64,000 bases of DNA from Halobaculum roseum (GTDB lineage: Archaea > Halobacteriota > Halobacteria > Halobacteriales > Haloferacaceae). The notes beneath the pieces were generated by a model. That model searched no databases and was not told where the DNA came from. It saw only the letters and a program-made list of their open reading frames with translations. The DNA is taken from contig NZ_CP082286.1 in NCBI RefSeq assembly GCF_019880245.1, positions 2,312,521 through 2,376,520 of the forward strand. The letters are read 5' to 3'. The position numbers were made by a program, and so were the translations under genes. Shown here piece after piece: positions 15,549 through 62,706 of the stretch; position 1 is the stretch's first letter, and every line of letters starts with the position of its first letter.

Positions 15549-15633
15549 GCCGAGGTAGCCTAGCCTGGCCAAGGCGGCAGATTCGAAATCTGCTGTCCAT
15601 TCGGACTCGGGAGTTCAAATCTCTCCCTCGGCG
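15549..15633 (+). tRNA. tRNA-Ser(CGA)
   Basis: Class II tRNA of 85 nt. Acceptor stem GCCGAGG/CCTCGGC with discriminator G; anticodon arm GCAGA-TTCGAAA-TCTGC gives anticodon CGA, decoding UCG; a long variable arm (GTCC...GGAC) is typical of tRNA-Ser; T-arm GGGAG-TTCAAAT-CTCTC. No intron and no encoded CCA. A short T-run (CTTTTC) follows and may act as terminator. Confidence 0.97.
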
Positions 15634-16006
15634 CTTTTCGCGCGAACAAGACTGCGAGAGTCCTACGTGTCTCTCGCACCCGTGAGCGCGAAACGACTTT
15701 CGGAGGGATTTGAACCGCCGAGTCGCAGCGCCGAGCGAACGAAGTGAGCGACCGACCGTCTCGGCGAAGTTCAAATCCCTCTATCGACGGATATCAGATG
15801 ATATGGACAGTGAGCGTAGTGATCTCGACGAGCTATGCCGATCCGGTCCGGAAGACGAAACTCACACTATATACCGTTATTCGCGATATAGAATCGGGCT
15901 CGGTCGCCCTGACCATCGCCCCGGCGCCTGTCGAATCCAAGCGTTCCGGCGGCACCGCTGGGCGGCGGGATCCTGCGAGAAAACGGGGGAAGCCGGTCGC
16001 GTCGAT
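15634..16006. repeat. tRNA-tail hairpin element after tRNA-Ser(CGA), then empty spacer
   Basis: Two nested structures follow the tRNA. First, TTTCGCGC (15636-15643) pairs with GCGCGAAA (15686-15693). Second, GAGGGATTTGAAC (15703-15715) is an exact inverted copy of GTTCAAATCCCTC (15769-15781), and the stem continues with CGCCGAG (15716) against CTCGGCG (15760). The right arm resembles a tRNA T-arm. The interior starts GTCGCAGCGCCGAGCG, as in the array after tRNA-Ser(GGA) at 62 kb. From 15790 to 16006 there is only A+T-rich spacer with no supported gene. Confidence 0.8.
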
Positions 16007-37501: not shown

Positions 37502-37671
37502 GGAAAGCCCCCGGCGCTGTCGATGGCTGCGACTCGTTGCGCTCCTCACCTCGGTCGCTTCGCTCCCACGGCTGCGGTGCTTACGTCGTCTCGCCTATCG
37601 ACAGCGCCGGCCCCTTTCATTCCCACCACACCACCACACCGTACCGCAGCCACCTCCTCCCCAGCCGATTC
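37502..37671 (-). repeat. Constant-end/variable-stem repeat, copy A
   Basis: On the minus strand: GGTGGGAATGAAAGGGG, 14-bp stem CCGGCGCTGTCGAT, interior of about 72 nt with ACGTAAGCACCG and GAGGAGCGCAACGAGTC, the exact complement ATCGACAGCGCCGG, then GGGCTTTCC. Stem arms are at 37511-37524 and 37597-37610. The 5' flank on that strand (GAATCGGCTGGGGAGG...GTGGCTGCGGT) is shared with copy D. Confidence 0.85.
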
Positions 37672-37812
37672 ACTCGGTCGCTCGCGCTCCCTCGTTCCTC
37701 CCTCGCGCGAGGCGACCGCGCACTACTCGAGACCTCCGGTCTCGTGAGGTCACACTCGCTTCACTCGCGTGACCGGGGCGCGGTCTGACGCGCGCCAACC
37801 GCGGTTACGTAC

Positions 37813-37988
37813 ACACCGTGCATATGGCTCCGACGCTCGGCTTGTCCGACCAACGGGTGGGAATGGAAGGGGCCGCGACTCTGCGCGAAGGTGGACGACG
37901 CAAGCACCGGAACCGAGGAGCGAACGAAGTGAGCGATCGAGGTGAGGAGCGCAGCGAGTCCCCCGAGCGCAGAGTCGCGGGGGCTTCC
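37813..37988 (+). repeat. Constant-end/variable-stem repeat, copy B
   Basis: GGTGGGAATGGAAGGGG (37856), stem CCGCGACTCTGCGC (37873-37886), interior with GACGACGCAAGCACCG, a nested GAGCGAA hairpin and GAGGAGCGCAGCGAGTC, complement GCGCAGAGTCGCGG (37967-37980), then GGGCTTCC. The 14-bp stem is perfect but differs from A and D. The 5' flank from 37813 (ACACCGTGC ... GCTCGGC) is shared with copy C. Confidence 0.85.
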
Positions 37989-38082
37989 GGACAGTTCTCC
38001 CGGGGCGGATCGGTTCCGTCTCCGGTCCGGTTCGAGACGGGCCCCGATGCGCTTCAAGAACGGTACCGGCTCTCGCCTCGGA

Positions 38083-61835: not shown

Positions 61836-61917
61836 GCCAGGATGGCCGAGTGGTAAGGCGCACGCCTGGAAAGCGTGTTCCCCTATGGGATCCAGGGTTC
61901 AAATCCCTGTCCTGGCG
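61836..61917 (+). tRNA. tRNA-Ser(GGA)
   Basis: Class II tRNA of 82 nt: acceptor GCCAGGA/TCCTGGC with discriminator G, anticodon arm CACGC-CTGGAAA-GCGTG gives anticodon GGA decoding UCC/UCU, variable arm TTCCCCTATGGGAT, T-arm CAGGG-TTCAAAT-CCCTG. No intron, no encoded CCA. It begins 28 bp after the small membrane gene. Its last 22 bases are repeated downstream. Confidence 0.97.
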
Positions 61918-62382
61918 TCGTTTTTCGCGCGAGCAACACACGCGAGCACCGCGTAGCGTGTGCGAGCGACACAGCGAGCGCGAACGACCTGTACGACAGG
62001 GATTTGAACACGGAAGTCGCAGCGCCGAGCGCGACCGAACGGAGTGAGGTCGACGCGAGGCGACCGTCTTCAGGAGTTCAAATCCCTGTCCTGGCGTACT
62101 TCTCGGGTCGACAACGCGAACGAGCGTAGCGAGTGAGCCGTCGACCCGTGTGTGCCCTTCCGACGGGGATTTGAAGTAGACGAGTCGCAGCCTGCGCAGC
62201 GAGCAACGCGAGCGAGCAGGACCGTCTCGGCGTGGTTCAAATCCCTGTCCTGGCGTCTTCTGACGGAGCCACACGGCGAGCGGAGCGAGCCGTGGCTCCG
62301 TGAAACCCGCGTGCAGGGATTTGAGCAGGGAGTGAAGCGAGCGAAGCGAGCGGAACGACCGCGTTCAAATCCCTGTCCTGGC
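61897..62382 (+). repeat. Array of tRNA-Ser 3'-end copies separated by hairpins
   Basis: The tRNA end GTTCAAATCCCTGTCCTGGC plus GT occurs at 61897 (in the tRNA), 62076 and 62235, and as 20 bases at 62363. Before each extra copy lies an inverted T-arm: CAGGGATTTGAAC 61997-62009, GGGGATTTGAA 62165-62175, CAGGGATTTGA 62314-62324. Between tRNA end and inverted arm is a second hairpin with its own stem: TTCGCGC/GCGCGAA near 61924-61983, CGGGTCGAC/GTCGACCCG 62104-62148, ACGGAGCCAC/GTGGCTCCGT 62263-62301. Units are 179, 159 and 128 bp apart. No ORF inside. Confidence 0.9.
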
Positions 62383-62706
62383 TCTTTAGACTTGGTAACC
62401 CGCCACGAGATGGTCCGGTACCGCTGTTGGTACTGACACCGTAGTGAAGACCGCGAAAGCCCCCGGTTCGCTCGTGGCCTGCGTCTCGCTGCGCTCCTCG
62501 GCCTTCGGCCTGCGGTGCTTGCGTCGCCTCGGCTCACGAGCGAACCGGCCCCTTTCAGTCCCGCCCGCCGCGACCGCACCGCAGCCACGACCTCCCCAGC
62601 CGATTCGGTCGTCGCGCTCGCTTCGCACCCGCTCCTCCCTCATCCCTCGCGCGCTCCCGGCGGGCACACAGGCCCGCCGGCACGCGACATCCGTAGAATG
62701 TCGGCC
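62383..62706. other. Non-coding region around repeat copy D
   Basis: Continues the 789-bp gene-free stretch after tRNA-Ser(GGA). Holds copy D of the variable-stem family, followed by GC-rich sequence with GCGCGCTCGCTTCG-type simple repeats and CCCGGCGGGCACACAGGCCCGCCGG, a GGCGGGC/GCCCGCC hairpin near 62660-62682. This may also terminate riboflavin synthase transcripts, which read leftwards from 63381. No gene seen. Confidence 0.6.
62453..62606 (-). repeat. Constant-end/variable-stem repeat, copy D
   Basis: On the minus strand: GGCGGGACTGAAAGGGG, stem CCGGTTCGCTCGTG, interior with GACGCAAGCACCGCAGGCC (GGCC-GAA-GGCC hairpin) and GAGGAGCGCAGCGAGACGCA, exact complement CACGAGCGAACCGG, then GGGGCTTTCGCGG. 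Arms lie at 62463-62476 and 62535-62548. The 5' flank (GAATCGGCTGGGGAGG) is shared with copy A. Confidence 0.85.

Follow-up and report, generated by a model that had tools for sequence, protein, structure and literature searches.

The window, that is, the whole 64-kb stretch of Halobaculum roseum DNA that was analyzed, belongs to a genome of 3.72 Mb in four contigs (G000), and contains a tRNA-Ser(CGA) gene which is followed on the same strand by two hairpins and by inverted and direct copies of parts of the tRNA:

15549–15634 (+), tRNA-Ser(CGA) gene (ARAGORN, Rfam)
15613–15633 (+), master repeat, consisting of the T-half and the acceptor 3′ strand of tRNA-Ser(CGA)
15636–15693 (+), hairpin A, TTTCGCGC..GCGCGAAA, 3′ of tRNA-Ser(CGA) and 5′ of the arm pair
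15703–15715 (+), inverted T-half (t′) GAGGGATTTGAAC, of GAGGG type, likewise in the orthologous G009 unit
15716–15768 (+), hairpin B core, ..GCCGAGTCGCAGCG..CGAACGAAGTGAGCG..GACCGTCTCGGCGAA, with the tip C(GAA)G, matched by the arm-free model R1 at E 1.6e-8
15769–15790 (+), degenerate T-half copy and tail, GTTCAAATCCCTCTATCGACGG, the distal end of the array

All pieces of this tail quoted in an earlier note on the same DNA were present where it had placed them, and the two arms, GAGGGATTTGAAC (15703–15715) and GTTCAAATCCCTC (15769–15781), are complementary at 13/13 positions. The described sequence is far above chance: two copies of AAATCCCTC are present in the window, where 0.10 were expected, and the stretch downstream of the tRNA folds with a z-score of −4.9, a value equalled by 0/200 shuffles. 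The earlier note had also described the order and the interior text as common to the array of tRNA-Ser(GGA) 46 kb away, and this is borne out by the region 61836–62383, where the same order of elements is found three times, with AGTCGCAGCGCCGAGCG in unit 1 and GACCGTCTCGGCG in unit 2:

61836–61917 (+), tRNA-Ser(GGA) gene (ARAGORN, Rfam)
61920–61988 (+), unit 1, hairpin A
61995–62009 (+), unit 1, inverted T-half GACAGGGATTTGAAC
62010–62075 (+), unit 1, hairpin B core
62076–62096 (+), tail copy 1, exact
62099–62150 (+), unit 2, hairpin A
62162–62175 (+), unit 2, inverted T-half
62176–62234 (+), unit 2, hairpin B core, GTAGACGAGTCGCAGC..GACCGTCTCGGCGTG
62235–62255 (+), tail copy 2, exact
62258–62303 (+), unit 3, hairpin A
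62314–62324 (+), unit 3, inverted T-half
62325–62362 (+), unit 3, hairpin B core, GG[GA]GT{GAA}GC[GA]GC(GAA)GC[GA]GC{GGA}AC[GA]CC
62363–62383 (+), tail copy 3, one mismatch

An Rfam search of the window matched tRNAs only, and no described RNA family was matched by the tail units. A second dispersed intergenic repeat of ~250–400 bp was observed in the window at 37650–38000 (+) and 62400–62660 (−), as well as at nine further loci (L234, L235, L237, L238, L239, L245, L249, L250 and L252); it carries the blocks GCGCGCGAGGG(A)TGAGCGAGGAGC, GAATCGGTTGGGGAGG, GCGGTGCGGTCG, GGTGGGACTGAAAGGGGC and GGGGGCTTTCG, and is structured-looking, with no Rfam match within the window.

The anatomy of the units was read from the DNA downstream of all tRNA regions found in this genome. 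Each unit runs from the tRNA 3′ end through hairpin A, the inverted T-half and hairpin B to a copy of the tRNA 3′ end, and the duplicated 3′ end spans G53/T54 to the discriminator base. Hairpin A has a T-rich start, often follows the plan GGCGGCAC-ACxACGACGAG..GAGGAGCC-GTGCCGCC, and is separated by a spacer from t′, which is an inverted copy of the T-loop and the 3′ strand of the T-stem. The units are ~80–200 bp long and filled by hairpins, and they hold no genes, including no integrase and no virus or plasmid genes. Tandem units were found at Ser-gga and Arg-gcg (three each) and at Lys-ctt, Gly-tcc, Val-tac, Tyr-gta and Leu-taa (two each), and the arrays are scattered over ~20 loci.

With a tail copy defined by ≤4 mismatches in 20, a downstream copy of the tRNA's own tail was found for 21/53 tRNAs in this genome, 18/51 in G009 of the same genus and 17/43 in G024 of the same family, whereas the tails of other tRNAs matched in only ~6% of control trials. 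The earlier note had proposed that serine, or class II, tRNAs are targeted, and had suggested inspecting the DNA downstream of all tRNAs for a serine-only element. This proposal is refuted, as the 21 tail-bearing tRNAs are of many isotypes, those with the element including Gly, Lys, Val, Tyr, Arg, Leu, Met, Gln, Glu, Asp and Thr, and serine tRNAs account for only 10/78 matches in named haloarchaeal genomes. A compact cluster of about nine tRNAs, located on a secondary replicon in this genome (L072, G000 C2:103386–105421) and on the main contig in G009 (L190, C1:722172–724011), was observed to have no tail units of the described kind.

Of the landing sites of mobile DNA, tRNA genes are the best known, usually for larger elements that bear an integrase. 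In named haloarchaeal genomes, 78/78 same-strand matches lay 33–280 bp downstream of a tRNA, at 19 tRNA kinds, and the tail of the adjoining tRNA was repeated with ≤1 mismatch in 67 of the 78; among the matches listed, 80/80 loci were haloarchaeal, Haloferax species included. Because the pattern used in that search contained T-half letters, the B core was also modelled with its arms left out (R1). This model gave 21 matches at E < 1e-5 in this genome, and 21/21 were at tRNA ends; in two of these cases integrated elements had displaced the array, and a third lay at an intron-containing tRNA with a CAT anticodon. A strict pattern was present in 43/53 sampled genomes of the order, in 0/242 elsewhere in the phylum, and gave 0 matches in reversed controls. 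Random copies away from tRNAs, which the earlier note had held to be at odds with tRNA targeting, were looked for in the named-genome scan and the R1 search, and none was found: the apparent exceptions L335, L357 and L360 (other genomes), L242 and L404 are tRNA tails displaced by integrated elements, and L409 is the CAT-anticodon tRNA, missed by ARAGORN.

At L409 (G000 C1:1222000–1223800, minus strand 877–1025), this tRNA has an exact tail copy, and its hairpin A repeats the end of the local tRNA in inverted orientation, CCGGCATGCTTC..GAAGCATGCCGG. The integrated elements that displaced tail arrays in this genome are one of ~6 kb at tRNA-Leu(tag) (C1:807459–813900; L091, L242) and one of ~3.4 kb at tRNA-Gly(ccc) (C1:1500239–1503800; L063, L404), each of which left a partial tRNA copy ahead of the displaced array.

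A related hairpin motif, GAACGNAGTGAG, occurs 61 times in this genome, with 0 matches in the reversed control, and many of its occurrences are away from tRNAs. This indicates that such hairpins are a wider haloarchaeal habit, of which the tRNA units are one anchored family. All 61 occurrences were on the main chromosome C1 (2.98 Mb) and none on C2–C4 (0.74 Mb), so that the secondary replicons are avoided. Palindrome arrays were also seen 3′ of protein-gene ends at six loci (L236, L240, L248, L251, L405 and L406), with GGCGGCGAGGTC..GGCCGAGCCGCCCA and GNA hairpins; they are partly tandem, 72–170 bp apart, and represent a non-tRNA cousin of the hairpin type.

Comparison of the arms with the tRNAs showed that arms track the local tRNA, with 1.05 mismatches of the inverted arm to its own tRNA and 2.65 to others (0/2000 permutations). 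The B cores behaved differently: in 29/29 cases, in comparisons that are not fully independent, the best-matching core from a different tRNA within the genome (mean 0.81) was closer than the core at the same tRNA in another genus (~0.6). Local arms together with shared cores indicate that B cores are spread or exchanged within genomes while the arms stay or become local. Turnover is also seen when G000 is compared with G009: the flanks upstream of their tRNAs share 96% identity, yet 9/27 units had no matching B. Tail copies showed no special conservation, their 95% identity being the same as that of the flanks and B. Hairpins A and B have been reshuffled with breakpoints at t′ or at the tail (Lys-ctt, Tyr-gta, Leu-taa and Ser-gga), and the distal tail copy was more decayed than the proximal one in 14 arrays and less decayed in two, although chance matches may account for a few of the high mismatch counts. 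In the Gly-tcc units, the inverted arm is GAGGG and does not match the local CCGGG stem, suggesting that arms may sometimes travel with the core and be corrected later.

As the earlier note had recognized, the arm at tRNA-Ser(CGA) differs from that tRNA's own T-stem (CTCTC versus CCCTC). The inverted arm at Ser-CGA is of GAGGG type in both G000 and G009, and no such Ser-CGA T-stem was present among the 18 genomes inspected. This speaks for the arm being of foreign origin. The earlier conclusion that the element had moved here, rather than being made locally, can therefore be kept in part: movement is supported, at least for the B cores (29/29), and by this GAGGG arm, but a hybrid arm does not as a rule argue against a local origin, as arms generally follow the local tRNA. 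Related genomes display other states of the locus. In G005, of the same genus, the site is bare, comprising the tRNA and a hairpin TTTTCGCGCGAAC.. that corresponds to the TTTCGCGC..GCGCGAAA hairpin A, with no B hairpin; in G002 and G006, newer units separate the tRNA from the hairpin A sequence, which closes the array at its far end; and G009 has one additional proximal unit relative to G000. Taken together, these states indicate that the window unit at tRNA-Ser(CGA) is old and distal, and that its end has decayed.

At Leu-gag, the site is occupied in G000, G002, G006, G007 and G010 (where it is decayed) and empty in G001, G003, G004, G005, G008 and G009 of the same genus. The insert in G007 is flanked by an exact 35-bp direct repeat, and gain and loss are not polarised there. 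As the occupied Leu-gag cores look orthologous, many of the differences among the genus members would be losses.

The B cores consist of steps of two base pairs, internal motifs of the GA.GA and GNA.GNA kinds, and C(GNA)G triloops. Their module score was 4.9, against 0.54 in dinucleotide shuffles, and C(GNA)G hairpins were present in 163 of the 197 distinct cores, against 10% of shuffles; in the same 197 cores, GNRA tetraloops were not enriched and C(UNCG)G was found 0 times. The tip pairs covary (G-C 65, A-T 41, C-G 4, G.T 3 and A.C 3). In the arm pairs, G.T (15) and A.C (12) were similarly frequent, with no G.U bias, and this absence of strand-specific wobble in arms and tips argues against pairing at the RNA level as the selected property. 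In DNA, hairpins of the d(GCGNAGC) type and tandem sheared G.A pairs have unusual stability. From these motifs and the missing G.U bias, we infer that the hairpins act as DNA rather than RNA.

The anatomy of the units, their location at tRNAs only, the arms of local type, the rapid turnover, the spread of B cores between tRNAs and the polarity of the arrays are all shown by the data. The units look like a family, so far undescribed, of very small repeats that spread and are at home on the tRNA ends of haloarchaea. Our main reading, to which we assign a probability of roughly 50%, is that of a haloarchaea-wide family of short, protein-free DNA palindrome cassettes confined to tRNA 3′ ends, the cores of which are copied by host machinery. 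B cores would be copied into the arrays of other tRNAs at the T-arm, either by recombination of the host or by template switching, a mechanism that we favour at about even odds. T-arm microhomology could be used on both sides of the B core (ATTTGAA / TTCAAAT), and copying through this flanking microhomology would replace the interior while the local arms stay. Units would be gained beside the tRNA, whose 3′ end is duplicated in the process, and lost through recombination between repeats; the family would behave as a selfish or neutral repeat, with the tRNA left intact.

Core copying through the conserved T-loop letters is the simplest account of local arms with shared cores, because a fixed transposon would not bring matching arms and a cassette carrying its own tail would only enter the same tRNA. 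Cas1 was found in none of six element-rich genomes (G000, G009, G024, G046, G038 and G256), and a Y1 transposase was absent from the element-rich G056 and present in nine other element-rich genomes, which indicates that neither is strictly needed. Against core copying, no insertion in progress, enzyme or intermediate came to light, the homologies of 10–12 bp are short for ordinary gene conversion, and the Leu-gag differences within the genus look to be mostly losses; selection for pairing could be an alternative source of the local arms. Somewhat more tentatively, and at a little under even odds, the units may constitute a new class of element: a protein-free palindromic DNA cassette whose ends are rewritten to match the host tRNA and which spreads from tRNA to tRNA via the shared T-loop, so that each copy appears to be of local making and tRNA function is preserved. 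Its working form may be single-stranded DNA, folded and carrying GNA/GA motifs.

Four other explanations were weighed. Under an integron-like process, a recombinase would act on folded single-stranded hairpins, with the T-loop as an attI-like landing site and hairpin B as an attC-like donor, and new units would lie by the tRNA and older ones farther out. The inverted core, imperfect hairpin and direct core at G|TTC, the arrangement of units in arrays, the repeats that are intact near the tRNA and decayed distally, the new units between tRNA-Ser(CGA) and the old trailer in G002 and G006, and the hairpin tips of single-strand type on one strand are all consistent with it. However, a cassette with its own tail fits only the matching tRNA, whereas B cores cross between tRNAs, the units carry no genes, and no common integrase came to light; we thus regard this process as unlikely, though it fares best among the alternatives.

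A MITE-like element moved in trans, in which a transposase inserts A-t′-B at the tRNA 3′ end and duplicates ~22–35 bp of target (T54 to the tRNA end or beyond), would explain the exact 35-bp repeat around the Leu-gag insert of G007 and the existence of empty sites, and the GAGGG arms of Gly-tcc beside a local CCGGG look as if derived from a donor. The inverted arms nevertheless mostly match the local tRNA, which a fixed element's would not, the outer sequences are not constant, and the one transposase family tested, Y1, is missing from one element-rich genome, so that such insertion appears distinctly improbable.

A conserved functional RNA or DNA structure at tRNA 3′ ends, acting in trailer processing, termination or as a fork barrier, and selected but immobile, agrees with the strong fold with its covarying pairs and with the order-wide presence. 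We consider it very unlikely, because ~60% of tRNAs have no element and close relatives vary, the cores are homogenised within genomes, and the G.U excess expected of RNA pairing was not seen. That the units are attachment-site scars or decoys of tRNA-integrating viruses or plasmids has hardly any probability left: direct repeats of a tRNA 3′ end are the classic att signature (PMC8371274, PMC3119063), but the true integrated elements at tRNA-Leu(tag), tRNA-Gly(ccc), L335, L357 and L360 sit upstream and displace the array with a longer tRNA fragment, 0/22 viral-contig matches were a unit of the described kind, and the inverted T-half and the B cores would be left unexplained. A virus-borne element was likewise rejected, the 22 matches being chance or unrelated tRNA palindromes. 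Five viral contigs (L167, L170, L175, L177 and L180; GC ~0.61–0.65) carry palindromes CATGGATTTGAACC..GGTTCAAATCCATG of tRNA-like ends, which are unrelated to the haloarchaeal units.

If the main reading is true, a gene-free family at many tRNA ends across an archaeal order, which copies the 3′ end of each host tRNA and swaps hairpin cores among tRNAs, would represent a new route of repeat spread. The units would serve as natural test objects for in vivo DNA hairpins with C(GNA)G loops and tandem G.A pairs, and would account for clusters of partial tRNAs that annotation may call pseudogenes or att scars. No description of such tail units was found in the open literature, and subscription journals may hold one.

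Among described systems, SMR-A and SMR-B of Haloquadratum walsbyi are ~80–110 bp long and have fixed terminal inverted repeats, no target duplication and an unexplained mobilisation; they target PATE/IS605 palindromes, and SMR-A inserts into palindromes of other elements (PMC3119063). The tRNA units resemble them in being haloarchaeal, lacking a transposase gene and having inverted arms, but differ in that the arms copy the local tRNA, the tRNA 3′ end is duplicated and the location is at tRNAs only. PATEs, which are derived from IS200-IS605, are dispersed and have neither terminal inverted repeats nor target duplication (PMC3119063); they share with the units shortness, lack of proteins, palindromes and a single-stranded DNA logic, whereas the units possess both inverted arms and a duplicated tRNA end, and are abundant in G056, which has no Y1 transposase. 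Integron attC arrays are similar in the unit-wise gain and loss, the imperfect hairpin between an inverted and a direct core and the polarity from a fixed site, and dissimilar in that the tRNA units have no cassette genes, land at a tRNA T-loop and have cores that cross between tRNAs. Like the att repeats of elements integrated at tRNAs by archaeal tyrosine recombinases (PMC8371274), the units duplicate the tRNA 3′ end and leave the tRNA intact; unlike those elements, they are gene-free tandem units of ~80–200 bp with hairpins A and B and an inverted T-half, and true integrated elements coexist separately from them. Bacterial REP/BIME are also short, imperfect, gene-free intergenic palindromes present many times per genome, but the tRNA units are nested in tRNA ends rather than dispersed, with arms that vary by tRNA, and in contrast to MITEs they have no constant terminal inverted repeats common to all copies. 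The SMRs and PATEs, the att repeats and the integron arrays are the nearest described systems, and each of them departs from the tRNA units in at least one tested defining feature.
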